The position numbers and the translations under genes are program-made. From positions 6,143,001 through 6,207,000 of the forward strand of contig NC_092674.1 in the NCBI RefSeq assembly GCF_964355755.1: a DNA stretch of 64,000 nt, in the 5' to 3' direction. The notes beneath the pieces were generated by a model. It had not been told where the DNA came from and made no database searches. It saw only the letters and a list, made by a program, of their open reading frames with translations. Each line of letters begins with the position of its first letter. Positions within the stretch are counted from its first letter, which is position 1. Below are positions 4,301 through 49,229 of this stretch, one piece after another. The DNA is from Antedon mediterranea (lineage: Eukaryota > Echinodermata > Crinoidea > Comatulida > Antedonidae).

Positions 4301-7300
4301 GTATATGTTCATCTTAATAGCCAAAGAAACATAGTCTTAACTCTCCATCTGAAGCTCTGTCTACACTATTAAACTAGTTTGACAAAAAAGGTTAAATATG
4401 GTAGTGATATGCCCAAATATAGTAGTGATATGACATCATGTTCATAATATGGGCACGCCACATTTTTTTGTAACATAAAGTTTGACAGTGTAGACAGAGC
4501 TTGAAGCTTGCATGTACAGTATGTAATAGCAGGCAAATGGCCTAGCAGTAAAGGCAGGGGCCCAGTACCTAAAGTGCCAACAGTGTATCAGCAAGGGTTC
4601 GAGGCTGACTCTCTCCAGTTCTAACAACACTTTGATAAATACTATCAACCGTAATGCAGGTCCAGTGTGCACTTTAAAGAACCGAGTTGATTATTTGAGA
4701 TGAGTAGGGGGTTATCCTGGTGAACTGGTTCACAAAATAGCCCCTGTATCAGAGAATTACCACTATTAAGTCAGTGATTAATTTTCTATTGGTAATCCTT
4801 GGCCATATGTGCCTAAATAAAAAAAACAAAATTGAGGTTGTATTATCAATGTGATAGCCAGTGAACGTTGTATCTAGGTTTGGCTGACTGCTATTTCAAC
4901 CCCATCATATTTGATACTATAGCAGTGATAATGAATCCACTTTAATGTACAGTATGAATAAAGAAAATACAGTGGGAAAATAAGCACAAAGCTGGTCATT
5001 ATAATGAACTACCACACAGGGCTAACAGGATCAAGGGAACACATAATCTGATTTGCATTTAAATTACTCTTAAGCTTGTTATTTTTGTCTAACTTTTATT
5101 TAAAAGGATTTTTAAAGGGTGTTTTAAATAAAGGGAACACCAAGTAAATGATGTGTGAAAATACAACTTTACATAATTGATTAATTTTATTTTATTTGGC
5201 AGTGGATTTTTAATCGCAAAATTACAAACAATGTTATAGTGTTAAACTCTGTCTACAGTAGCAAACTAGTTTGACAAAAAAAAAGGTGCGATGTACCAAA
5301 ATATGGTAGTGATGTTCTCAAATACGGTAGTGATATGACATCATCATGTCCATATATGAGCACATCACATTTTTTTTGTCACATAAAGTTTGATAGTGTA
5401 GACAGAGATTAAGGATTATCTTTGCAGTTACGGTTATAACAAGAAGTTATTTGTGTTTTTAAAAAAAATCATTCATGAATTTTGTTTGATTATTTCTGCT
5501 AGGGACATTGCACCTTTGTAGGTTTGTGGTTTGGCATCTGTAAATCAGAAATTTAAAGGTGGGCTTTAAACTACTGGGTTATACAGTATCTATTGTAATT
5601 TATTTTACTCACTGGAAAAATAAATTACACTGCTGTAATCATCATAAATTGATTGAATTTTATTTTGAACAAATGCAATTTAAACTTTGTGACACGTCTC
5701 CGTTCAGGATCATTTAAACTGATGAATACACACATTATATCTTTATCTTGTCACTATATCTAATGGTTATGGTGTCACTAATAATGGTTAATGCTATTCT
5801 TTCCTTTGAAATAATTGACGAGTCTGTGACTATACCTTTATTGATACAATTTTTGGCTAGCCTTTAGTGGAGTGAAAAGTTTAGCATGAGAAATTGAGTG
5901 TTCTATAGAATACGATGATTGACAGAGATATCAAAAAAATATATCTCTCATACTCGTAAATATATTCACAATAAAACGTCAAATTGTGCGGCCGGTTTCC
6001 TGTTTGAAACATAATGGATGTGGTAATGAGTTCAGGTGAAATCATTAAAATTGAATTTATGTTCTGTATTTCAATTATAGTTCAATAGTGAAGATGTTTG
6101 TATAAGTTATTAGCTTTCTTTTGTACTGCCGGATATGCTGTTTAGTTCCCCATAGATGTATGTTGATGTCAAATTATTCTAGGTTAAGTTACTCTTGCAG
6201 TTACTACTGCAGCTACTGCAGTCGTATACTATGTTTAATCTTTAACTGATTTTAAACTTGTTTAGCAAGTTTTTGTTGTACTGATGATAATGTTTATTGC
6301 ATTGACTGTCTTCTTAAGCAAACTAAAATCATATACGCATTAAACAAACAATAGTTACTGCAGCTACTGCAGTAACTATTTTGAAGTTATTTAGCAAGCT
6401 TTTTTTACGTACTTATACTGTTTATTGCAGTGACTGTCTTTCTACATTACAGTAAAATCATATACTGTACGCTATTGCATTAAACAAATATAGTTACTGT
6501 AGTAATATCACATGTCTTTTTAAAACTTGGCCCTAGCCCTTTTTGGCTTAAGCCTTGTCTACACTATCAAACTTTATGTGACCAAATGTGATGTGCTCAT
6601 ATATGGACATGATGATGTCATATCACTACCATGTTTGGGCATAAAACTACTATATTTGGGCACTTTTTTTGTCAAACTAGTTTGATATTGTAGACAAGGC
6701 TTTACTTGAGATTCCACACATAAACAATGATTCTAACAAGTTTTTTTCTTTTCTTTTTTACTTTATGTGGAACAATAAAATGAATAAATATAGTTACTGC
6801 AGTAGAATAATTTTGACATGATTCTTTGGATGGGAATTGCGTGGTTAACCCGGTGAAGTTTAGGTGAAAATCATAAAAGTGATTGAATGTTCTATATTCA
6901 CTACATCATTCATGAACCTTACTCCACTTTGGTACCTCAAATTACAGTACATCTACACTACAGTATATCACATTTCTTTGTGAATATAAGTTATATGAAA
7001 TTGACATTCTAATTATGAAGTTCATGCGCAAGTTAATATTAATGTAATCGGGTTATGGTAGTTAAAATTAAAGAATTGAAGAAAAGGTCAAATTGTGTCA
7101 TTCGATCATTCTGATTGGCGGTAAAAGTCATTAAACATTATTCAATGTTCTTTTCAAATTCTTTTCAATGCTTCTGTCAAAACAAGTATTAAAATGGCAA
7201 AGTGGGTTTAGTTCAAGAAACTAGTTCTGAGGTGAAAATTATTGTGGTGTTGTGGTTGTGAAAAGGGTGTTAATTACTGAACAAGTCATTAAATGTTTTG

Positions 7301-15888: not shown

Positions 15889-18800
15889 CTATAAGGACTG
15901 GCAGATTGTACGCACATTCCACGGGAACAAGAATGCGGAACGGTCTTCCGTAGGTGACGTGGAGTCGTCGATGAAGACGTCATCTGTGACCGGACTGGTA
16001 CATTCAGAATTGTCATCAGAAGAACTATGAAAAACAATAAAATGTCATATCACTACCAAATTTGGGCATATCACTACCACATTTGGACACATCACATCAC
16101 TCACACAGTATAGAAAAAAATGTTATGGTAGAAAACATCCCTTCTTTGGGAAATCTCTATACACTTTCCTGTGAAATAAATTAAGGGGGAAATATGTTTT
16201 AAACATTTTAGTTCCTGTGGGTTCTAATACATTCTATTACATGAACACTTCCCTGTAAAAATGAACAAGCCAATAGAGAGGTTTCGCAATCTTACGAATA
16301 CGATAACGAAAACGGTCACGCACACATATTCGTTTTTCGTAAGCCAGTAAAAATCTGTTTCGCATGGCAACGAAATATTGAGGGCGCCGTACAAAACGTG
16401 ACTGCGGTAAATTTGAGCGAAGCGCAGGTACGTGTTGCTTGGTGCTTGGCTGCCTAGGCCTAGCGTAACATCAAAGCAAGTGAGGACTTTAAAAACTGCT
16501 ATTTATCAAATTTACCTGGCATTTTAGTAAATTACTTCAGTAAATTTCTTTCAATAAATCTATAATTATATTATAATCATGAATCATTCCTGATTCAAAT
16601 GAAAAATGTGAAAAATAGATCAAAAACTATACTCGTTTTGTAATTACGAATATGACTGGTGATATTCGGCAACACGAATACGCTTTACGAATATGAAATG
16701 GGGATCAGCTCAAAAGTTTCACAAATGTGTGACGTATCCGTTTTCGTAAGGCTGCGAAACCTCCCTAATATATATTTTTTACACTATGGCCAATTCAGGG
16801 GACACCCCTATTGAGCTCTGTCTAAACTATCAAACTGTGATGCTGATGATGTCAAATCCATACCATACTTGGGATGTCACTACCATATTTGGGCAATTCA
16901 CACTTTTTTTGTCAAACTAGTTTGATAGTGTAGACTGATAGTGTAGAGTCTATAAGAAAACTCAATTGTGCCGGGTCTCAAACATTGCTGGGTTTCAAAG
17001 GTGTCCCCTTAATAGGGGCTCTATTGTATGTATGAAATCTAACCTTTCTGCAGTGATTGACTCTCCATCAGACGTCCTTAAAAGTGGCGGTTCATTTTCA
17101 GGTATTGGCGGAAGATGACACGCTGTCATACAACTCATGCGTATCTGCTTTGCTGTTCGCATCGACACCGTCCATGACAGTTTACTGTGAGGGCGCTTGC
17201 ATTCAGGTGATGCGTAGATGTCAAGAAAATCCCTCATTAAGGACTTACATTGTAGTAATTCACTATCGGACATCTGGTAAGGATGAAAAAAAAAAACACA
17301 ATTGTTTTAAAGAAACAAAAATTACGAAGAGGTAGAAATATAAACTAGGGTACATCAGCATGATGTTAGGGGGCAGGGTGGATAATTTGCTTTCCATGAC
17401 TAAAGCTCGGTTCCCACTAGTAGACGCAGCGCAAGCGACATTTTGAATAATCTATTACTTGCATTGCATCCTAGTGAGAATCAAGATTTAACAAGTTCTA
17501 TAAATTACCTGCTTGTTGTTTTGGTACAGTAAACGGTAAATTATACGATAGATTAATCTGCGCATAGGCCTACTTGTATAGTATACACCATTCCATTTCA
17601 TATTAAGCTCTGTCTACACTATCATACTTTATGTGATAACAAAATGTGGACATGATGATGTCATATCACTACCATATTTGGGAATATCCCCATCATATTT
17701 GGGCTCATCACACCAAACTACTGTAGTTTGATAGTGTAGACAGAGCCTTAGAGCCAGTTCACTTACACGTGTATGGAGTTGTAGAGCTAGTAGACACCTT
17801 GTCCATTCACGTTCAGCCGGGTTACAATGAACGCGAGCAAAATCTGCCAACTCGTATGTTAATAATGCTAAAGCTTTTACAGAAGACTGCAAGATAAAAA
17901 ACAAATTCTAGTGTAATTGATCGCACATTCTTCATAAAAAGGAGATCTTAAAATTCAAAATATATATTCAAACATCAAGCTGGCAAAAAGAAGATGGCCA
18001 AACCATAGAGGGTGCTATACTTTTTTTTTTAATTCATCCAAAAACAGATGTTTTTGTAAAACCAAAACAAATTTCACACAACTCCCACCATTAACAGGAG
18101 ACTTAGGAGGTCTGGTAATAAGCCGCCCGTCATACGTATATTAGACATTGGATTACTGATCGTGAGATCGTGGTTCGAATCAAATTTTCTCCGCATTGCT
18201 TGTATCTTTAGGCAAGATACTTCAATTTGCCTCTCTCCACCTAGGTGTACAAATGTGTACCTGGTAAGGTCAAGACACATTGCGATGATTACTAGCTGCA
18301 TTATGGGAGTATGTTTTCAAATTATCTTTTGTTAATCATTTCGGAAATTCATTGCTTGTTTTACAAAAATATGTAACAATACATAATAAATAAAATTAGT
18401 AAAAATTTAACCAAAAAAAATGAACAGGGTAATAATGTGCTATGTAAGTTACCTTTGAGAATGATTATTCATGAAAAAGGGTGCTATAGAAATTATTATT
18501 AATTATTCCGAGAATCAGGCCTGGTCTTTTTAAAAATGTAGGTGTGCTACAAATTGCACTCCTCAATACATTCAGGGGTGCTGTAGGTGTGCCGTTTGTA
18601 TTTTGGTGTGTAGAAGTTTACCAAATTTAAGTGTGTTGTAAATCACACTCCTCAAGGGCAGCTTAGGAGTGTGATCGCACTCGCTCACCTCAAAAGAAAA
18701 AAGCCTGATAAATGTTACATTACCTTATAATGAACAAATGCAAAATGGCACATGGATGCTTCTAATTTTCTCGTAATCCTGTCCAAAAACTCCTGCCACG

Positions 18801-21026
18801 TGTTTTTCTGTATATTCATTGCGTTGTTTGATTTACAAAATGAATGATAGATCTGCAGAAAGGTGTTTGAGTTGGTACCCTGAATGTCGAACTGAAGCTT
18901 TTCTAAAATAATACGTTCCATACGCGAGAGGTCGCTTAGAGATGCCCTGCATTGGCCGATGCGTAGTAAATGTTTTGCACACATATGATTCTAGAAATAA
19001 AAATTAGGTAAAGCTCTGTCTACGCTATTGAACTTGTTTGACAAAAAAAAGTGTGATGTGCCCAAATATGGTATTGTATGCCTAAATATGGTAGTGATAT
19101 GCCCAAACATGGTAGTGATATGCCCAAACATGGTAGTGATATGACATCATGTCCATATATGGACACATCACATTTTTTGTCACATAAAGTTTGATAGTGT
19201 AGACAGAGCTTAAGAGAAGTTTAATAGATTTATTTAGTTTACAATTTGCCAAAACTGTACACTTCAATATCATTCTAGTACCCTATATAGAATGATCTGT
19301 TATAATTAAATATAGTACAGCCTTTTTTCAGTGTGAACATACCTTTGGTTCTTCTATTGTCTTGACTGCCATGTAAAAACAACATGTACTCACACACATG
19401 ATATGATGAGCTCGGGCCTAAACAAATGAACAAAAATATTCAAAAACAACATTTACAAACACATAAGATATGATGTGATGAGCTTGCGCAAAAAAAAAAT
19501 GTCTAGGGGTAAGATTTTCATCAACTTTCATTAAACATTACATTTTTTCTATAGCGCCCTCTATTATTTTTAATTTGTTTAAATTCGGTTTACACTTGAT
19601 GCTTTGCTGATGCAATTGTCAGAAAAGTTATGCAGTAAACAAAATTAAGGGCTATAGAGCCTTGTTATAACCTCCAATACTTTGTAAAATGAAGGAAATA
19701 TTTTTTTCTCTAGGTTTGATTGAAGGAAGTAAATGTATAATATAATTTATGCATACATGAATGGTTTTATAAAGTATGCAGGAAATGAGACGGAAATTGT
19801 TTATTTGCGAACAAATAACATTTTCTACTACAAACATTTATAGAAATACTTTTAAAAAAAGCTGCATTATGCAAAATGAAATGTAACTATTTTTGTTATA
19901 AGTAGAACCACCTTGGGACATCTCTATGAGGTGAGACGGAAGATTAATGTGCTTTGCCACCAGCGTATTAAAGGGACACTTGTTGGGTCCCGAAGGTGAA
20001 GGTACTCAGTAGCATAGCACAAAGGCCCCTGGTTTAGGAATGCTGGAGCCCTCTGGCGTTTTTAGGCCTTTTCGCATATTTGAATGCCTCTGGGCACTGC
20101 TCAGGGGCCCCCATAAGCCCCGGGGCCTCTGGGTTTAGCCAGTGAGCGCTCATAGCAATTACGCCACTGAAGGTGCCCCATAACAAGAGTTCTATTCTAC
20201 CGAAAAGGGAATTATTTTAATAATTTTTAAATTCTTTCAGTGCTATGGATGCTTACTTTAACAATTGATAAAAATCTTCCCATAATGTTCACCGCCTGGA
20301 AGAATGTTTCAGGAGAGAGTTTGTAGAAACGGTTTAAGCAACGAAGTCTGTCAACCACTTTGATGTACAAGTCTATTGTCAAGTCACCAGATTTCTAGAA
20401 AAGTAGATACAGTAATAATAATATAAATGTTAATATATTTTTTCTGCACCTTCAGACAGTTATATTCAATTACCACGCGGTAGCTTATTATATAGCTCTT
20501 CGGCTGAAAAAATTAGGTTATTTGGAAACGCGGACTGGACATGCACACACACACCCAAAAGCACATCTGGGAAAAGACAATCTACATAAACATATGTTGA
20601 AAAATATTAAGATGCATGTAGACAGTAGATCGTCAGATGAGCGGCATTTTTTTGCTGTGTTAAGGGCCTTTCACACCTGTTCCGGCGAATCGAACGCCAA
20701 TGTTTCGTTTTCACAACGCTCCACGCGGCCAAGCACCAATCGATATGCGCGTAGCCGCGTAAAAACGAAACATTGACGTTCGATTGGATTTGCCGTCGCC
20801 GGACCGGAACCATGCCGGAGCAGGTGTGAAAGGCCCTTTAGGATGGAAAATAGAAGATTAATAAAAGTAGCCCCACATCATGCGACCCCACATTTAAATA
20901 AAATGAATGAAGTTAAAATACCTTGTTTGAAAATTGTAAATAACCTATGTGTGGGCTATATTTTTCTTCAGATTTTAGAGCTGAATGAAGGTCATTTAAT
21001 AGTTGATCTATGTAGGTGGCTGCCAT
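15889..21026 (-). CDS. CCNG2: Cyclin G (pro-orthologue of CCNG1/CCNG2)
   Basis: Atypical cyclin. In vertebrates cyclin G proteins restrain the cell cycle and recruit PP2A; that role is from the family, not the sequence. Coding exons on the minus strand, 5' to 3': 21026-20922, 20394-20257, 19417-19343, 18990-18724, 17886-17767, 17273-17044 and 16024-15889. They sum to 1,071 nt (356 aa; human cyclin G2 is 344). The first five are phase 0. The start ATG has a good context (AAGAAAATGGC). The cyclin box runs from exon 2 (SPETFFQAVNIMGRFLSIVK) through exon 4 (LSRMERIILEKL). Exon 6 carries the cyclin-G-specific LSWTVSMRTAKQI and HLPPIPE. The C-terminus (AFLFPWNVRTIC) resembles the cyclin G end. It is convergent with the growth factor gene and divergent from cyclin I. 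The symbol reflects synteny; a pre-vertebrate gene is equally related to CCNG1. Confidence 0.93.
16042..16100. mobile_element. CArG MITE fragment, copy 7
   Basis: Only internal modules remain (GTCATATCACTACCAAATTT, GGCATATCACTACC, GACACATCACATC). It abuts the last cyclin G exon. Confidence 0.65.
16276..16765. mobile_element. MITE family C (TA-flanked), copy 2
   Basis: About 490 bp, closely similar to the copy at 11348 over its whole length. TA at both flanks. Lies in cyclin G intron 6. Confidence 0.88.
16785..17035. repeat. GGGGACACC dispersed repeat interrupted by a MITE
   Basis: AGGGGACACCCCTATTG is separated from the matching AGGTGTCCCCTTAATAGGGG by the CArG MITE at 16813, showing that the MITE arrived later. 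Confidence 0.7.
16813..16936. mobile_element. CArG MITE, copy 8
   Basis: GAGCTCTGTCTAAACTATCA to GATAGTGTAGACTGATAG; inserted into the repeat above. Confidence 0.85.
17605..17748. mobile_element. CArG MITE, copy 9
   Basis: TTAAGCTCTGTCTACACTAT to GTAGACAGAGCCTTA, in cyclin G intron 5, about 20 bp from the donor of the preceding exon. Confidence 0.88.
18095..18510 (+). mobile_element. tRNA-derived SINE family 2, copy 1
   Basis: Box-B-like GTGGTTCGAATC, then CTGCATTATGGGAGTAT and a terminal GTGCTATAGAAATTATTATT. The middle section CTAGCTGCATTATGGGAGTA recurs at 55,475. Confidence 0.55.
18522..18710. repeat. Dispersed repeat D, copy 1
   Basis: About 185 bp nearly identical to 52,583-52,767: GTGTGCTACAAAT, CACTCCTCAATACATTCAGG, GGTGTGTAGAAGTTTACC and GTGATCGCACTCGCTC shared in order. 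Complementary ends (CTTTT ... AAAAG) suggest a MITE. Confidence 0.8.
19011..19211. mobile_element. CArG MITE, copy 10 (long)
   Basis: AAGCTCTGTCTACGCTATTG to GATAGTGTAGACAGAGCTT with four or more tandem modules; the longest uninterrupted copy in the window. Confidence 0.9.
19985..20175 (-). repeat. Dispersed repeat E, copy 1
   Basis: Inverse of 39,535-39,705: GGGCACTGCTCAGGGGCCCC, GCGCTCATA and ACGCCACTG are shared. Confidence 0.65.
20662..20839. mobile_element. GC-rich palindromic MITE
   Basis: AAGGGCCTTTCACACCTGTT at the left pairs with CAGGTGTGAAAGGCCCTTT at the right; inner arms (AACGCCAATGTTTCGTTTT / AACGAAACATTGACGTTCG) also pair. In cyclin G intron 1. Confidence 0.85.
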
Positions 21027-23546
21027 TTTCTTGCTTCAGTGTTTATCCAGCAAACTATCTGTAAAATACAGTAAAAACAGTGTTTGATATCAAAGAATTA
21101 TTTTTAGATTTCTAGCAAACACTGATTTAAACAATTTGTTTAGGAGCGCACATTTAGCAGAACAAATAAGCCTATAGAGGCCTAGGCCTATATGATGGTT
21201 GGTTTTCTACTGTAAAGAAATGTGTATACAAAACATGCATTTGCATAATTAATTGAACCAATTAAAGGTCCAACCCCCAGCAAGTAATTAAATGTATACC
21301 AGAATAATACTATTACTAGGCCTAGGTCTATACTATAGTAACACTAACAGATAGCCTAGTCTAACCCAATTGGAGGTAATATACCTCCATCTAGGCCTAT
21401 ACTATGACTATGGATATGATGATGACCTGACCAGAGCTAATGAAATCAATAAAGAGGCCTAATAACAACTAGGCCTAGGCCTAGGCCCGGTAGGCTACTA
21501 ACTAGCCTAGCTAGGCCTCTAGCTAGGCCTACTAGTGTTCCTGCATACTTGGTCATTATTTATTGCAATTCAACTAACCAAAATACTACTTTATTTAGCT
21601 ACACCTATATAATAGAAGGAAGCAATTTGTAGCTAGGCCTAGGCCTGCAGCTATCGTGAGAGCGGGAAGAATGTCTACAAACAATGTTCACTTCGTCGAC
21701 GGTGTCGATCAGCTGCACGCAGTAGTGTGTTGTTTACTGCTGGACCAACTTCCCTCTTTAAAACAACAAAGAATTTGAACTGCGCGCCTTTTCTGGATCG
21801 TTGGCAGAAAACCAATGAAGCGAATCTCTTTTGCATAATTTTGCCAAATGCCAAATAACACAAACAGACGCATTTTAGATTTAACCGCTTAGTGTCAACA
21901 TGAATTTATGCGTACAAATGTTTATATAAATCTTACAGATATTGAATATCACATTGAAATTAACTGAATTGTAGGATGTAAAAATTACACTTTGTCAAAT
22001 TATTTTGACTTTAGTCTGGAACTATTTTTTTGCGGTTTGATACAAATAAGGAAGGTAATCGGTGACTATTGGACCAAACAAAAACGTCACTCGTCAGCTG
22101 CTGTAATTACTTCGCAATCCTTCGGAGGCTAAACATCAAATTTTTTTTCAATAGAAATTTTTCATTTTTTTCTGTTAAATAAGATGTACAAAATGTGTTA
22201 GAAGATACTGGTATTATTTGTGAAGCTTAGTGCTCACACTAACCTAACAAACCAATGGTTTTGTTTCTTTTGTGAGTGAGAGGTAAGCAATTTCTTTTCT
22301 GCTGTTCAGGGTTGGGTTTGACAGCTGATCTCGACAACAACCGAAATGGGGTCAACCGTTTTGTTTGATAAACAAGAGGCCTAGCTAGCTAGGCGTATCT
22401 AGGGCGTAGGCTATATTTTTCACTTTGTCTTGTGTTAAAATTGCGCAAAATGTTCAGTTTATTATGAAGCTTATGTCCTACTACTACTAACTGCACAGGC
22501 CTATTTTTTTCATTCGTACAGGAAACAAACAATTTTGATGATTTAAAAATGATTTGATCCTATCTAGCCTATGACTCGGAGGCCTATTAGGCCTATTTGT
22601 ACTGACTGTGTACAACAGCTTAATATTATAAATGTATATTCCCCAATTTGAAATTCACAACAATATATTTGTATTATTTCAAATTTACAAAATGGGGATG
22701 AATATTTTGGTTACATTAATTATTATTTGTCAGTGTTCTATTCTACTCTTTATTTTAATGAATTATTTTAAACCACCTGTAACTTTTACATTATATTTAT
22801 AATTTATACACCTACCTTTGGAAACATAATTATTAATAATTAATATTTTCTCATAGTGCTTATGTAAGCCGTTTTGCTTAATAATATTGTTTTCAGTTTC
22901 TTGCCTGTACTTGTTGATGTCATGTCCTCAATTGTTTGTTAAGCAAACAACATCCCTTTGGCCCCCAATATAACTGATGCAATGGAAATGAAAGAATAGA
23001 TTGGCAATATTTAGGTCAAACAAAAATTCCCTATGACTGAGTCAACTTTAATTTCACCAGAGTATTTATAGCATAATTCTAGAATAAAAATGTCTATTCT
23101 TGAATGTTCTTTGGTTTGTAGGTGTGGTATAATTATTTATAGTGGTTAAAAATGGTGGTTTAAAATATTCATTGTGATTAACCTTGCTATCTTTGTATGC
23201 ATTGTTGTAAGCCTATTAATTATTATTTTTTGGGAAAGTTTGTGGTTCATAAAAAGAACACTTCTTTAGACCCTGAGATGTTTTTGTACAGGGCTTAATA
23301 GTAATTACACAAACAGGGAAATTAGAATGAATTTACAGTAGTTTTCTAAAAATATTTTAGTATAAAATATACCAAATTTAGTTTTTATTGCAAATAACAA
23401 TGTATATTTCCATATTTGTATCACCATTTTTAAAGTGATATTTTCAAAATTACCGTCCATGGTGAAAACATTATTACAACAATAATTTGATTTTTTTTTC
23501 TTTAAGGTCCTTTGTGTAGTTGTGTGTGGTGGTGGTTATCAACAAA
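21027..23546. promoter_or_regulatory. Shared divergent promoter region of cyclin G and cyclin I
   Basis: This 2.5-kb interval separates the two start codons (cyclin G leftward, cyclin I rightward). It is unusually rich in AGGCCTA palindromes (about 21,179-21,648 and 22,376-22,600) and has a relatively GC-richer core near 21,640-21,880. It contains TTGTTTAC, the FOXO consensus, at 21730-21737. A splice-acceptor-like TTTACAG on the minus strand near 21,060 suggests an untranslated first exon of cyclin G; a TTTAAG near 23,506 suggests the same for cyclin I. No transcription start can be placed. Confidence 0.55.
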
Positions 23547-26500
23547 ATGAGGATGCGCAAGGTTTTTGATGTGAGGAGGTTACAAGGCATGTTGGAGAAA
23601 GAGATGGAGAGAGAAGAGAAACTTTGGGTACCATGCCTTACCAACCTTGATGATTCTGATGTAAGTTTAAACATAATGTCAAAAATGGTTTTAAGAGGAT
23701 CATCTTCTACCCTTTAAAAAATAGGGGATCATCTTCTACCCTTTAAAAAATAGTGGATCATCTTCTACCCCTTAAAAAATAGTGGATCATCTTCTACCCC
23801 TTAAAAAATTGGGGGTCATCTCCTACCCACGACAAAATAGGGGATCATCTCCTACCCTTAAAAGTAAGGGGAACTCCTTTAATTTTTAGGATATTCTTAT
23901 TTTTATCCGAGAACTCGAGGCAGTGCACTTATTATTTTATTTAAATTGTGATGTATTAAAGTCAAGTTAGCTTCTTTCTTTTGGGCATGTTATTGCTATA
24001 AATTGATTATTATTATTTCATGGATGATTGTTCATCTAATTGTCTCGTTAGACAATAACAATTATCTTACACATGATTGCATCATATTATAAGTAATTCG
24101 ATTTCACTAGTTGATTTGCTTCTGATTGTAAATCTTGAAATATTTTTACCACCTTTTTCTTGAAAATCAAAATTACTATTTACGCACCACAAACTAATTG
24201 TACTGTACCATATTATGGTGAGGTTGGTAAATAATCCCACCCCAATAATTTTCTAAATTTTGTATCTAGGCTTACTCTTACTATGCTCCGTCACATACAG
24301 TTAGTTTTTTCTGGTATAATATTAATTTGAAATTTGCTATACTATATTTAGAAATTATATTGTTTGTGTAAATTCTATGAAGTTGATTTTTTTATAATTA
24401 TGCAAATGTTTTTCTATGTAACTTTGTAAGAATGATGAAATTGTGATTTTGTTAGTTTTCTGGTTGAACTGTTTCAATATCCACAAGAATTTATGTTTTT
24501 GAATAAAATGAATAGAATTATAACAATACAACACACAGTAGTAACTGTGGCTGGGTTTCGTTTCTGTTATTTTCATATTATTATTATTTTCTTTGTGTGC
24601 AGCCAAGCCAGCCAATGAGTGGCAGGTGGTTGTCACATGACCGCTGTAGCTTGAATACTGGATTATTATATACTTCCCCAAACAATGCTTTTAGTATCAA
24701 TCTACGTCACATGCATCTTGACTTTTTATCTCTTATCTGATTAAATATGAATGGTCTACTCTTTATGTCATAAAATATTTAAAATATTATAGAGTCAGAG
24801 TATTAATAAATGAAATTACTGTTCATGAAATTGATACCAGATTATAAAACATGTTTTTTCTGCATTAATAATTTAATAAAAAAAAAAAAAATTTTAAACC
24901 AACTAATTTTTTAATGTACAGCAAATTATTTCTGCCAATGTAGAATACTTGGTATATGTACAGTACTGGTAAAGTTCTGTCTACACTATTAAACTAGTTT
25001 GACAAAAAAAGTGTGATGTGCCCAAATATGATAGTGATATGACATCATGTCCATATATGGGCACATCACAATTTTTTTCACATTAAGTTTGATAGTGTAG
25101 ACAGAGCTTAATACAAAGAATAGTCTGTTTACATGGCCTTCCACAAAAACAACAATGAAAGTGTATAAAATTCTCTGTAACCACACTCTGTATTGCCTTA
25201 TTAGTGTTGTAGTATACCACAGTCTAGTCAGGACTTGACAAACCTTCCCAAAGGCTAATTTCAGTTTTTTCCACCTTAACCTCACATGACCTAGTAATTA
25301 AATGTTACAGTACAATCATTAACAGTGTTAATTGTGTATTGTTGAATTTTGTAAAATCACCTAAATTAAATGTCGTGTATTGTACGTACTGTTAGACTTC
25401 CCCGCAAGTCTGTATTATTTGTAGTTTGATTTTTGTCTGAAAATTGTGAGCTGAAGTACAGTATTATACGTATGAAATGCCATATGTGTCAAAATATTTC
25501 TCTTTATTAATTACAGTCTAGTACCTAGATTTACGTACTGTATTATAATTTTTTTTTTTTCACAAAATTCAGCAATAAAATTATGCTTTAAAAAATGTGG
25601 ATAGCTACATACAGCAATTAATTTAAACTATACTTCTTTTTATATTTTATTTATTTGATAGGATAAGTACATTACTATGGATGATCGTGATTATGCTGTG
25701 ATGTGGTTATATGAAAAGAATGCCGTGTTTGAGTTTTACCCGGAGACTCTCGTACACAGTATCAATTACTTGGATCGCTTCCTCAGTGTTATGAAGGTGA
25801 GTTTTTAGTGGTTTCAAATTCATAATGTATGCAGGGCTCGAAATTCACGCTAGCAAACTAGCATTTTGCTAGTAGATTCTTGATAATTGCTAGTTGAAAA
25901 TTTCATAACTAGCAAATGTTTGCTAGTGTAATTTTTGAAAAAATACGTACTTTTTAGCTTAGCCACGCTAGCCGCCAATCGCTATGTCGACAACGGCTAA
26001 TAGGAACCAATTTGGTGAAAACAATTGTTTCATTTACACGCCGCCAATTTACGTCAAGGAAACGCGAATAGCACCGTGAATCATGTGGTAGCATAGTTGT
26101 TAACGATGTGCATTATATTAACAGCAAGCTTTTCCCCAACACAAAAGCATGTTCATTTAGTACGTCGCTAAGGATTACATCATCAGTCACCTGATTACAG
26201 AATACGCGATTATCAATTTAGGGATTTAACGAAATAAATATTTTGCCTACACAGTGGTCGAAGCGCGTATTTAATAGATTCGTAAATAGTAAACACCCCC
26301 CCTCCCACTTAATGGACTCTTCCAATTTTGGAGAAGAACGTCTCCTCGGCACACCACGAGGTCCTGTTGTTTGTGCGATGGATTTTCTTACGCCTATATT
26401 GTTTACCTGTGGAATTAAATTACACACACTTTCGCATCACAACTTTAATTACTGATTTTACATAGCAATGAGCAAAGGATTCATCAAAGAAAAATACGTT

Positions 26501-29500
26501 GAATAAAAATTCACTTAAGAAATGCCGTAAGCTGTTTTCAAACTATTGATCAGCCCACTATTTATTCCAACATCATTCATGCCTCTCGTGCGATAGGGAA
26601 TTTCCTGGATAGAGACGAGTCGAGCGCGAGAGACGGCGGAGTGAGGCGGGCGTAGCTTGGGACGGATTAGTTAGGGCCTGCCTACCAATTTCGCTCGGTG
26701 GCAATTAAATTTAATGTTTTAATTACGTCTGGATATAAACAATATAAAACTCAGTTTTGTCATCGGCAATAATATTTTATACATAGGCCTAGTCAATTTT
26801 GTTCCGCTTCAAATTTTAAAAGTTTCGACCTAAAAAAAAGTGGGCCGAAACGTCTCGGGACGAATCGTCCATAGGCCGAAACGCCCTTGATTTGGCTAGC
26901 ATGAAAGCATGTCTTGATCTTTTTTTAATTTGGCTAAAAAGGGTACTACTACTACTACAGCTTTGCCTAGCTAGCTAAGCCTACACCTAAAAGCTAGGTC
27001 TAGGTCTACACCTAAATAAATTCAGATTTGTGTAGAATTTAACTATTTTACCGAAAAAAAATTGTGATTGCTAGTTATGCTGCTGATTTTGCTAGTTAAT
27101 TTTTTTACAACTAGCAAAGTTTGCTAGTCGAAAAAAAAGTAAATTTCGAGCCCTGGTATGATACAAATTTTGCAATATCTTCAGTTTATCAGTGGATATT
27201 TTCTACTCTCACAATTATTGGGTTTAATCCCATATCCCATGTTTTGCCTTTAGAGCCATGTTTCTCAACAGGGTATTGCTAAACTGCTTAAACCTCGCGC
27301 CAACCTCGCACAAACCCTCAAGACCCTGCTCAAACCTCCTACAAACCAATTTTGATTAGATCTCAACTAGAACTATGAACAGAGACAATTTATGAAGAAA
27401 AAATAAAATTTCTGTAAGTTTGTCTGTTTCTAGGTGAAAAACTTCAATTTTTGGGAAAATTACAAATTTCACTAATCATGAATAATATAAACGAAAACCA
27501 CTTTAAAAAAAGGTGCTCTTCTTTTACACGCCACCTATGGTATACGTGCAACCCACAATGATTAATCCACCATTATCATGTTCTTTATGTTAGTACTAAT
27601 TGAGACGTGTTTACCTGCCTGTCATAGCCAGGTATACTCTATTTACATTGTCAAGTGATCCACTTCAGTCACAATGACTTCAAATTTATTGACAATTTTA
27701 GATTTTAATATTAACAGATTGGAATAATTGAAGTATTAACTTATTATCTAAAAGTGGAATTTTGACATTTGTTTTTAAAAGTCAAAGCGATAATTAATAT
27801 TGAATGTAAGCTCCAATAATTGTCTTTGTCATATTCAGCATATGTCATTTTAAATACTTTATTGTCTAGAATTTACTAAATATTAATTTCATAACATATA
27901 CAGTACACTTATTAATACTGTATTTGTTTTACATTTATAAAGAATACTTAAAGATGTACTGTATTGTATTGTCCCCCAAAAACACGAAAAATGAAGATTA
28001 ATTTTTTTAAATACTTTAAATAGGCCATTTCAGAATTTTTATATAGTTAAACACTTCGGTAGAAAAAATAATTTCAGTGGGACAGTATATTTATAAAAAA
28101 AACTAGCCCTCTTGAAATATAAATTGAAACAAATGAATAAAAAATATACCATTGCTCTATCGATGTTCATTTTAATTTAACACAGTGCCTACGTTTATTC
28201 AATGTTATATTAGTGTATTTATGTTGGCTACCCTCGATCACAGAATATCTAAATCAGAGGAATACACTACAGGCAAATAAGCATTCTTTACCTGTGGTGA
28301 AATGACAGGGATCCAATTAGCTACAATTGGGCCTGCCTTGTAAATGGTTTCATAATGTATGCACCTTTAAAAAAATATGCTGAGATTGTAATGTAAATGG
28401 ACAGCATGTGTCACTATGTTGAAGGCTACAATTTATGATTTAAAGAGTAATCTTCTTATGTGATAGATGTCATATACTGTAGTAAAGATGGGAAAATGTT
28501 CTTAGTTCTGTATTCAAAATAGTGAAATGTTTGCAATTAAAATACCCTATTAAAAATATTGTTTTTATACTGTAAAGCCCAAAATGTTGCGATTTTACAA
28601 TTCCACTATTTCGCGACCTAAAAATATTGTTTTATATTGACAACATTAAACAATATAATGAATAGCGTTGTTAGATTAAAAAAAAAAAAGAAGTATATTA
28701 TAAAAATTTAATGAAATATATATACTAATTTATTGTTATTTGCATTGAAAATAAATGCTCATTCATAATATATTCATGTAAAGAACAGGAAAAGGCCTAC
28801 TTTTAAAAATGCCTACCGTATTCTTGGGTTTAGTTTTGCTTTCATTTAGAAGAAGGCAACAAAAGAAAAAATATTTAATCGAGTAGGAAATATTAGTAGG
28901 ATTTATAACATAATTGATACAATACCGTAATAATAATATTCTCAGTATTCTAAATACTGAGTTTTAATGTGTTTCTTTTTAGGTTCACCCAAAATATATG
29001 ATGTGTATAACGGTTGCCTGCTTGTACCTGGGTAGTAAAATGGTGGAGGAAGATGAGGTAAACATTTTTTTTTTATTGCTTTGCTCTGTCTACACTATCA
29101 AACTTTTTATGTGACAGAAAAATGTGATGTGCCCATATATCAACATGATGATGTCATATCACTACTATATTTGGGCATATCCCTATAATTTGCTCACTTC
29201 ACACTTTTTTTGTAAAAAAAAAAAATAGTGTAGACAGAGCTTTACAAATTGGTGTCATCAAAGTTTTATTGACGTTTTATTAAAATTTAAAAAAAACTCT
29301 TATTTTCATCCAGTCTATTTTAAACCATAAGTATTTTGTAAATAATGAGTCAGATTTTTATTTATCTGATAAAATGTAAATAAAAGTTAGTGATTAGGTA
29401 GTTAACCAAATATGTTAAAACGATAACAAAACAGAATAGTTCATTGTTGTAAAGATGTTGTCTGTTCAAAATCATGTAAGCGTATAGGTTTTTGTTTTCT

Positions 29501-32500
29501 TCCTGGTATGACGTATTTGATTGAATCCTGTTGTGGTTTTTTACGGAAAACATAAATAGGTGTGTATTGTGTCCGTAGGATTTCCTACCCACTGCTTCAA
29601 CCCTAGACCAATAATACACAAGTAATACATCAGATCTTATCTACTGTACAGCACACAACACTAATCCTATGAGTGTTCATATTTGCCCGGTAAACAATAA
29701 AATATTATTTCTGTGAGATAGTGCCTGAAGGTCGTGTCTCTTGTGAAAAATAATCTAAATATGGAATATTCTGGAGATAAAGGGGGTTGGGGAGGGGGAA
29801 GAAAGCTAAATTTCGCATTTCCAACGTAATTTGAGCAATGATAGAACAACTTAAGTTTTTTATCCTAGTGGGATATCAGCTTAAAAGTATATCTTAACCA
29901 ATAACCCAAACCCATGGATGTGTTCTGTTATCAGTAATAACCCTACTTTTCAACTAGAATATTCTCTAATGCATGCAATGATTGCATTACAGGATGTATA
30001 AACCAATTTAATTAATTAGTCTTGGTTACTTCATTTAATTAATAAGGTTCACTGTCCTTGAAAATGATACAGTATCTACTGTATTATCACTTAGTATTAG
30101 GTTTTACAATCTTGTTTTTATCTAAAATCTGCATAGTTAAATTCTGAGTTAATTCTTTCCATGTCAGTGATATTTTAACAAAGACTACTGTACAGTATCT
30201 TATACTACAGCACTATTCTTCATATCATCATAAACGCCGAACATCTTGCGACACACATAGCACTCTTAACAAGAGCGATTACTGCCCAGAGTGTGCATAG
30301 ACTTTTAATTTTCCGATCGTATGTTAACATACATACCTATAATTCGTCAAAGTGACGAATTAAATTCTAGTTTAATTATATTACTGTACATTACATTATT
30401 GTGTATGTAACTGACATTACATTGAATTTCTGTGTTTTTCTTACTCTTCCATACTATTGTCTTACTTACATTCCATGAATTACTGTACTTGGGAAGTTAT
30501 TAGCATTCTGTTTTTCCAATTATGCTTCCTTATTCTTTGTTTTTATTCCAATATACAATCTTCCCTGTTTGCAATCCACTTGGCTTGCTACTTATACTAT
30601 AGATACCAGTAATTGTAAAATTACAGATTTCATATTGAAGCTTCATGCATGGTAAACCAAAAAATCATTATTACAGTACTTCCTCATATTTTTGGAAAAA
30701 CACCACAGAAAAATTATTTATGGTTGTTTTATTTTGTCTATTTTAGGATGTACCCTTGACTGGTGACCTAATACGCGTCAGTAAATGCGGTTGTTCTGTA
30801 TCAGAAGTCCTACGAATGGAACGCACAATTCTAGACAAACTCAACTGGGATATGCACGTTCCGACATCCCTTGGATTCCTTCAAATTGTAAGTGCGTTTT
30901 CTTCGGGTGACATTAAAATATTTAATCTCAGTGAAATGTCATGTGCATATACAGTACTATATAATCCCTTATTTTAACCCAAAATATGGAGATATGCATG
31001 GACATACAGTCCTATATAGTCTATTCCAAGAATAAAGAACCAAATTAATTTCACCAAACACTAAAGTAGAATACAATGAATTTTTATTATGAGCCTTTGG
31101 TTTGAATGTTATAAACTTTAATGTAAGATTTCATAATAAACTTGCTTTATGCGAAGGTCTTGGTTAAATTGGATGGCATGGATTTCCATATTAAACAACA
31201 AATTGGTTTGGAAGATGTGCTTATATATCATGCAAAATGATTTCTGGAGGGGCTTTTATTCTTGTACGAGTTTTTATCATCATGACTAAAAATTCACAAA
31301 AAAAGAAATGTCAAAATTCACCAAAAAAGAAATGTCAAAATTATTTATAATTAAAATAATTATTTTAATTTTGTTTTTACAGTTGCATGCTCAGCTTATT
31401 GAACACCATCCACAGCTACTCAATGGTTTAGGTCACATGACCGCCTCTCGTCACCTCTCCATCTTGACCACGCGTCTGATCATTAGTCTGGGCAACGGAG
31501 TACTGTCCCAGTACAGTGGATCAAACATTGCGGTCAGTCTGCTAAGCCTGGAGCTTGAAAGGCTCACACCAGCCTGGCTGTCAATCATAATTATGTTGCA
31601 AGACACAGTCAAGGTAGACACACTTCCTAGTTCAGGCTTAAGCTCTGTCTACACTATCAGCTAACTAGTTTGATTAAAAAAAGTGTGATGTGCCCAAATA
31701 TGGTAGTGATATGCCCAAATATGTTAGTGATATGACATCATCATGTCCATATATGGGCACATCACATTTTTTTGTCGCATAGTTTTATAGTGTAGACAGA
31801 ACTTAAGGCTTATTTTAGTGACATTTAGTTAGTACCTACTATCACCTAATCATGTCTTTTCGGATAAGGACTATAAACCTAGTACATCTTTCGAGACGTT
31901 GGGCGTTATCCCGGTGTACTAGTACACACACAGTCACTGTCACTCACATCCACTGATAATAACTGGGCCCTCTGGTCGACCAGTCTTTTACTAAAGAAGT
32001 TACCCAGTTTAAATAAATAAAGAATAAACAACTTTTGAAAACCCCATAATAGGGGAAACTTTCCTGTGAAACAAACAAGGGTTTTAGCACAGCCAATCCA
32101 TAATCAGAATTTCCTAAAGGTGTCCCCTTAATAGAGGCAAAGGTGTCCCCTTAATAGAGGCTCTACAGTAGTGTATTTGACTATTCCCTTGTGGGACCCA
32201 TCTCTGATTAAATTACTCATGTTTTTATGTCAGGGCCACTAACTAAAAGTTGAATTGGTACTGGGTGACAAAGCTTATTTAATATAAAATGAGCTTAAAT
32301 AGAGTTAAAAGTCCTAAGCTGGATAAACATTGTCTCTTTTTGTTACACAAATTGAATAGAATTACCATTTCAAACAGTGATATAGACCTGCATTAATTAA
32401 TCCTTCTAATTTTGTCAAGGATACATGGAGGTCCCATTTATTTTTATTTAATAAAAGACAACCAATATTTTATACAAATTATGTAAAACACCACAAAGGC

Positions 32501-33130
32501 TAACTTTCTATATTATTCTACAAATTGTCTAACCTTGGCAGTATCAAATTTAAATTTACATAATATTGTAATAATGCACATTTTCGTGACGATGCATCAT
32601 TGTGTACAATGGCAGCCTGTTGGTCTTATGAGTAACAGTTTAAATTGTATGTCTGTTGGTATTAGACCAGTCACTTCATATCACCAAATATATCGTTAGG
32701 TTATCTAGGTATGACGTTATCATGGGATAATAAGGCTACCATAAAACACAATATTGTATCCCTGTGTAGGAGTGTCAATTGGTTGCTATTGTTTCAATGA
32801 GTTTAAGTAAAACAGAGGTTTTGTTGTTTTTTTTTGTTACAGGTGGAGAGCCAAGACCTAATCCATTGTCGTGAGGTGATAAGCCACACCCTTATGGGCT
32901 ACCCAACCACCAATGCAGTGTACTACTGCATAAACCCACCATCTGTCATTGATAAACCTGCTCAACAAGACCTCAAACAGGCCAGCATCGACCTTGACGA
33001 GGTCTTCGACAGCATTAAGTTATTATATGAAGGTGGATGGGAACGAAATCGACCAGACACCTTAGAACAGCAATGCAAAGGCTCTAACATGTCGCCATGC
33101 CCACCACTCCAGACAGTTAGGCCTGTTTAG
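23547..33130 (+). CDS. CCNI: Cyclin I
   Basis: Atypical cyclin of the G/I group; the vertebrate protein is linked to CDK5 and cell survival. Coding exons: 23547-23660, 25662-25796, 28983-29057, 30747-30887, 31383-31613 and 32843-33130, all phase 0, giving 327 aa (human 377). The N-terminus (MLEKEMEREEKLW) matches the cyclin I start. The cyclin box includes FYPETLVHSINYLDRFLSVMK, VHPKYMMCITVACLYLGSKM and VLRMERTILDKLNWDMHVPT. The C-terminus keeps the cyclin I signatures FDSIKLLYE and SPCPPLQ close to the stop, which decides it against cyclin D. The start chosen is the ATG at 23547; an in-frame ATG lies at 23520, but an acceptor-like tract ends near 23506, so some 5'UTR may be spliced. Intron 1 holds a 29-bp minisatellite and intron 2 a 1.3-kb transposon. 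Confidence 0.94.
23690..23880. repeat. 29-bp minisatellite in cyclin I intron 1
   Basis: About six copies of a unit near GGATCATCTTCTACCC plus TTTAAAAAATAG, starting 30 bp after the exon 1 donor. Confidence 0.85.
24972..25109. mobile_element. CArG MITE, copy 11
   Basis: AAAGTTCTGTCTACACTATT to GATAGTGTAGACAGAGCTTA; in cyclin I intron 1. Confidence 0.88.
25832..27155. mobile_element. 1.3-kb non-autonomous DNA transposon with CAGGG ends
   Basis: Starts CAGGGCTCGAAATTCACG and ends GTAAATTTCGAGCCCTG, with subterminal CTAGCAAA repeats. Flanked by GTATG on both sides (25827-25831 and 27156-27160). The ends recall hAT elements, but a five-base flank does not fit the eight-base hAT duplication. No transposase frame. 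In cyclin I intron 2. Confidence 0.85.
27945..28097. mobile_element. Repeat F (TTAAAGATGTA...GTCCC), copy 1
   Basis: CTTAAAGATGTACTG and ATTGTCCCCC at the left, GTGGGACAGTATATTTA at the right; related to the copies at 55,593 and 56,713. Confidence 0.5.
29081..29242. mobile_element. CArG MITE, copy 12
   Basis: TTGCTCTGTCTACACTATCA to ATAGTGTAGACAGAGC, starting 24 bp after cyclin I exon 3. Confidence 0.88.
31640..31804. mobile_element. CArG MITE, copy 13
   Basis: AAGCTCTGTCTACACTATCA to ATAGTGTAGACAGAACTT, 27 bp after cyclin I exon 5. Confidence 0.9.
31850..32015 (+). mobile_element. tRNA-derived SINE fragment
   Basis: Matches the body and tail of the copy at 54013 (TTCGGATAAGGACTATAAAC, CATCTTTCGAGAC, GGCCCTCTGG). 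The tRNA head is missing. Confidence 0.7.
32038..32172. repeat. GGGGACACC dispersed repeat
   Basis: AGGTGTCCCCTTAATAGAGG occurs twice in tandem, ending GGCTCTACAGTAG. Confidence 0.7.
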
Positions 33131-48002: not shown

Positions 48003-48904
48003 GTCGAGAGATTACTCTCTAAAAGTAACTGCCATTTTTTGCGTATTTAAATATTCCAGAATTGTTTCTGCTTCAATTATTGATACGCCTGCGATTGTAA
48101 CCTTGATTGAAAATATTGATATTTTAACAAATATTTTACATAGAAATTAAAAATAATTCAGTTTATATTGTTTTGTTCCTTTTAGAAGATTTTTCAATTC
48201 TTTGGTTTTTGAAATTATATTCTTCCAAGTTTGGTTTATAAATGAATATATTTGTGTTCAAAGAAATGATAAATTATATTTGAGAAAAATTTAATTAATT
48301 GGTTTGTATTGAAAATGAATATTGAAAAAATATGGTATTATATTATTATTACATATTCGAAAAATGCAAATTGTTGATGCTTTAACATATTATTGCAGAT
48401 AGATTTATATAACTTTTCAATGACATTTTAAATCTCTGAAATATTCAATTAAGTTCAATTATTTTACTTAAAAAAATAATACTTTTCACTAATAAAAAAT
48501 TAGATGGCAATGTTTTTGATCTGATAACAAAAGATTTGCTAAATTTGATCTCCAAATAGTTTGTTAGTTGATTGTTCAAAGGTTATATTTTTACCAAAAA
48601 TCTTAAATCAATTCAATTAACCATAGTGCAATCAATAGACCAATTTATATTTTTGAAAATTGAATGAAGTTATTTTTTCACAAGTTTTTAGATTTGTGTT
48701 CTTATATTTCATAGATTTATTAACATGGTTAGGTCTGTTTATTTCTGAAATGCGTTTCAAATATAAGTATGTGCTTTCAAATCAAATAATTGAGTTGATT
48801 AAAACCAAAAGATAATTACATTGATAGAAATTCATAAATATTCTGTAACTGAATTGTGTGATCTGTGCGTGAAAGAAAATGTGGATGTTATACTTATTTG
48901 ATTA

Positions 48905-49229
48905 ACCTCTGTCTACACTATCAAACTGTATGTGACAACAAAATGTGATGTGCCCATATATGGACATGATGATGTCATATCACTACCATATTTGGGCACA
49001 TTACACTTTTTTGTCAAACTAGTTTTATTTTTTTTTCTCTTTCGTAGGTTTAGCCCACTTTTATTAATTATTTCATTCCATGACAAAGATATACAAAGAT
49101 TAAATATTTAAAAAATGTGTTTATAGCATGTATGTACAATATGGTTATAAGAGATATCTTTTTAAAACATAGCATAATTGGTTATATTGGCACATACCCA
49201 AACTAGTTTTATAGTGTAGACAGAGCTTT
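48905..49229. mobile_element. CArG MITE, copy 21, split by an insertion
   Basis: ACCTCTGTCTACACTATCAA at 48,905 and GTGTAGACAGAGCTTTA at 49,229 are the two ends; 49,029-49,198 is foreign. Confidence 0.88.
49029..49198 (-). mobile_element. 170-bp retro-insertion inside a MITE
   Basis: Flanked by an exact 14-bp duplication CAAACTAGTTTTAT (49015-49028 and 49199-49212). Begins with a T-run, as a poly(A)-tailed insert in reverse. Source unknown. Confidence 0.8.

Follow-up and report, generated by a model that had tools for sequence, protein, structure and literature searches.

The divergent cyclin G and cyclin I genes of Antedon mediterranea, found in the 64,000-nucleotide stretch of DNA analysed here (the window), are sister paralogs, and we put at roughly 75% the probability that they represent an ancestral G/I pair that arose by inverted tandem duplication and was then inherited, possibly with a common promoter block between the two genes. 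If the pair is old across bilaterians, it would date and orient the duplication behind cyclins G and I, which are poorly understood atypical cyclins, and would offer a simple test of whether it is inertia or a common promoter that keeps neighbouring paralogs together. The presumed roles of the two cyclins are unaffected by the finding. A search of open-licence papers found no description of the CCNG2-CCNI pair, and an earlier description may exist.

Gene models and protein identity

An exon-by-exon rebuild confirmed a divergent pair of two complete, intron-rich genes on opposite strands, with 2,520 bp from ATG to ATG. The first-pass annotation had placed a leftward cyclin G and a rightward cyclin I with about 2.5 kb between their starts, and the rebuilt models bear this out; its outer limits (15889 and 33130) and spacer limits (21027 and 23546) were exact to the base.

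15889..21026, minus strand: cyclin G coding part, 7 exons, 356 aa (GT-AG model, single open frame)
21026-20922, 20394-20257, 19417-19343 and 18990-18724, minus strand: cyclin G exons 1-4
17886-17767, 17273-17044 and 16024-15889, minus strand: cyclin G exons 5-7
21027..23546, no strand: intergenic spacer, 2,520 bp, without self-similar repeat
23547..33130, plus strand: cyclin I coding part, 6 exons, 327 aa (GT-AG model)
23547-23660, 25662-25796 and 28983-29057, plus strand: cyclin I exons 1-3
30747-30887, 31383-31613 and 32843-33130, plus strand: cyclin I exons 4-6

All internal junctions of both genes have AG/GT borders, and both frames close. The start codons of cyclin G and cyclin I are supported by in-frame stops directly upstream of each ATG, and no further coding gene was recognised between the two ATGs (21027-23546).

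Both proteins match the Pfam Cyclin_N domain (PF00134), cyclin G with an E value of 1.8e-13 (50.8 bits against a cut-off of 23) and cyclin I with 5.1e-24 (84.9 bits), and a structure search returned cyclins A2 and D1 as the closest solved structures. The assignment to cyclin G or cyclin I relied on working versions of the human CCNI, CCNG2 and CCNG1 sequences, the lengths of which (377, 344 and 295) are as expected. Against these working references, the leftward protein scored 155 and 146 bits with CCNG1 and CCNG2 but only 97 bits with CCNI, whereas the rightward protein scored 226 bits with CCNI and 117 and 109 bits with CCNG1 and CCNG2. The alignment of the latter with the CCNI reference covers the full length, reaching residue 324 of 327 and taking in the C-terminal SPCPPLQ motif. 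Identities to the human references are 33-35%, which is the level of divergent orthologs. In a small tree with the same human working sequences, rooted on two other cyclins of the A. mediterranea genome, cyclin I grouped with human CCNI (support 91/93) and cyclin G with human G1/G2 (67/73), so that tree support for the naming, the G clade included, is moderate. These comparisons, which depend on the working human references, give good reason to pair the leftward gene with CCNG1/2 and the rightward gene with CCNI.

Nothing in the pair differs notably from the cyclin G/I family as described (PMC3923393; PMC3238295, TF101007): the Cyclin_N domain and the clustering of G with I are found here as well, and the Lys-Glu pair in the cyclin box can be read from the alignment in both proteins. 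Human CCNI has been reported to bind and activate CDK5 (PMC6971155).

Common ancestry of the two genes

Whole-genome protein searches gave strong matches to cyclin G and cyclin I at this locus only, and each gene is single-copy in the 354-Mb genome. Past its own exons, the top match of each protein was exon 4 of the other (E values of about 0.002-0.003, 42-44% identity), and the two are mutual closest paralogs in the genome. They also have introns in common, all of them phase 0: three lie at identical alignment columns, and the positions of a fourth differ by one column in a gappy region of the alignment. This agrees with published work in which cyclin I invariably groups with cyclin G and the ancestor of the two splits after Nematostella, later than the cnidarian branch (PMC3923393), and in which bilaterian cyclin G and cyclin I are listed as separate genes, each doubled in vertebrates (PMC3238295, Table 5).

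We infer the inverted duplication event itself. In an early bilaterian, an inverted copy of a single ancestral G/I-type cyclin gene would have been placed beside the original, after which the head-to-head copies would have diverged to become cyclin G and cyclin I. The present ambulacrarian and, in a looser form, humans would then have inherited this layout. In the present animal, both genes are predicted to start from 5' noncoding exons within the 2.5-kb spacer, where a single promoter block at about 21.6-22.3 kb, or two close neighbours, would send polymerase leftward into cyclin G and rightward into cyclin I.

On the human side, we take CCNI (minus strand) and CCNG2 (plus strand) to be adjacent and divergent in 4q21, the same arrangement as here, but with starts presumably about 80 kb apart compared to 2.5 kb between the ATGs of A. 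mediterranea. Humans presumably also have second copies, CCNG1 and CCNI2, which we take to lie elsewhere and far apart on 5q, in contrast to the single copy of each gene found here. Because the host is an ambulacrarian, the comparison with human spans the deuterostomes. Adjacency ever since the duplication would then follow from the gene order of two species, of which the human one is assumed. A probe of macrosynteny with human chromosome 4 gave a mixed picture, with NUP54 on contig C5 (a weak match) and ANAPC10 on C4; a search for SDAD1 was without match, and the controls were equally silent. The argument here makes no use of this probe.

Since cyclin G and cyclin I are sister paralogs that would stem from one inverted tandem duplication, their adjacency and orientation need no constraint at the origin; only the persistence of the pair, unlike its origin, still calls for explanation. 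Ancient metazoan microsyntenic and bidirectional gene pairs likewise keep an old adjacency for a very long time. Unlike unrelated neighbours that regulatory elements hold together, the partners here are paralogs and their adjacency has a simple origin.

The spacer and its predicted promoters

The spacer is free of dispersed repeats and is essentially unique in the genome except for short arrays of TAGGCCTA. Self-similar repeat makes up 13% of the cyclin pair's own span, and other repeat-free kilobases of the window lie at 26-28 and 33-37 kb. The palindrome TAGGCCTA occurs 19 times in the window against 0.56 expected (about 34-fold over-represented), with 8 of the 19 copies in the spacer (21183-22588) and 4 just upstream of ABCE1, and 98 copies were counted in loci totalling 214 kb, part of which overlaps with the window. 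Copies of a dispersed MITE-like element, the core of which is CTCTGTCTACACTATCAAACT, lie at 2267-2478, 6524-6732, 19020-19220 and 48902-49107 and at other sites; the element is found in cyclin introns and is absent from the spacer.

Four features in the spacer bear on where transcription might begin.

21059..21060, minus strand: predicted splice acceptor AG of cyclin G, top 1.3% of all AGs
21551..22250, no strand: CpG-rich block, observed/expected up to 1.17 with CpG-poor flanks, a candidate promoter region for both genes
22280..22288, plus strand: candidate donor GAG/GTAAGC of a cyclin I 5' noncoding exon (exon end 22282, score 11.4)
23505..23506, plus strand: predicted splice acceptor AG of cyclin I, top 0.7% of all AGs

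The two acceptors score similarly to those of verified exons and would place the exon starts at 21058 for cyclin G and 23507 for cyclin I, 32 and 40 nt before the respective ATGs. Because strong acceptors directly precede both ATG exons, 5' noncoding exons are probable for both genes, and with such exons the true starts would be nearer each other than the ATGs are. A donor with a score of 11.4, like the candidate for cyclin I, is expected 0.12 times on each strand of a 2.5-kb stretch; the spacer yielded no strong donor that would serve a noncoding exon of cyclin G. Bidirectional promoters are usually taken to have transcription start sites within about 1 kb of each other; here the ATGs are 2.5 kb apart and the predicted starts lie inside the spacer. 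Both promoters are thus probably within the spacer, where a single CpG-rich block at 21.6-22.3 kb may hold them.

Of the 32 CpGs in the spacer, 25 are located within 21640-22420. Comparable CpG-rich blocks make up 36% of the window, and for this reason we rejected the block as proof of a promoter. FOXO (P=0.25) and CCAAT (P=0.30) motifs occur in the spacer at chance levels. The single spacer occurrence of GCGGGAA, with P about 0.05 among six patterns tried, was likewise rejected as evidence.

Persistence of the pair and its surroundings

The first-pass annotation had concluded from the conserved orientation that the genes share a regulatory region or that a constraint prevents their separation. 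A shared promoter block is plausible in the present genome, as predicted from the layout of the spacer, but a constraint does not follow, as one inverted duplication suffices to explain the arrangement. The assumed human spacing and the assumed separation of CCNG1 from CCNI2 argue against a shared promoter being obligatory. A broader version, in which the founding inverted duplication left this pair as a relic throughout the bilaterians, with one shared promoter block still driving it in slow-evolving invertebrates and the promoters later separated in vertebrates, strikes us as tentative and somewhat unlikely.

It is also possible that selection holds the pair together, with a shared bidirectional promoter or enhancers coordinating cyclin G and cyclin I so that breaks are harmful. 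The 2.5 kb between the ATGs, the spacer that is repeat-free despite the repeat content of the pair's span, and the predicted noncoding exons that point from both sides into one CpG-rich block are all consistent with this. We nevertheless regard it as unlikely, as the window holds equally repeat-free sequence at 26-28 and 33-37 kb, regulatory motifs occur in the spacer about as often as chance predicts, and the human spacer and the separated vertebrate sister pair, both as assumed above, show a different pattern. In addition, Drosophila keeps cyclin G and is not known to have cyclin I. That the adjacency in A. mediterranea and human is independent or coincidental is highly improbable: one genome was tested and the human order is assumed, but the genes are sister paralogs with common introns and the same relative orientation, and the chance adjacency of two single-copy genes on 18 contigs is negligible. 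Inheritance from one inverted duplication remains our preferred reading.

Several neighbouring genes were also recognised. Left of cyclin G, on the plus strand at 1272-2757, is a PDGF/VEGF-domain gene with CXCXC repeats. Beside cyclin I, an OTU-domain gene and ABCE1 lie on the plus strand at 36673-63000 of the window, with a weak PDB match for the former and a match of 4.7e-76 for the latter. The OTU-domain gene reads to us as OTUD4, which its exons further along, at 39.3 and 40.9 kb, seem to resemble, and we take OTUD4 and ABCE1 to be neighbours in human 4q31 as well, making them a possible second conserved pair.

A GH6 search, which bore on a tunicate affinity of the host, gave no match, with controls that were silent too, and no COX1 was found in the genome. 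A search with an Antennapedia-type homeodomain located an apparently complete Hox cluster of 12 genes on C2 at 7.83-8.21 Mb; of the two posterior genes at its end, one has the opposite orientation (7848416, minus strand). We read the posterior homeodomains as ambulacrarian Hox11/13 types and find both Hox4-like and Hox6-like genes in the cluster, and on this reading the host is an ambulacrarian.
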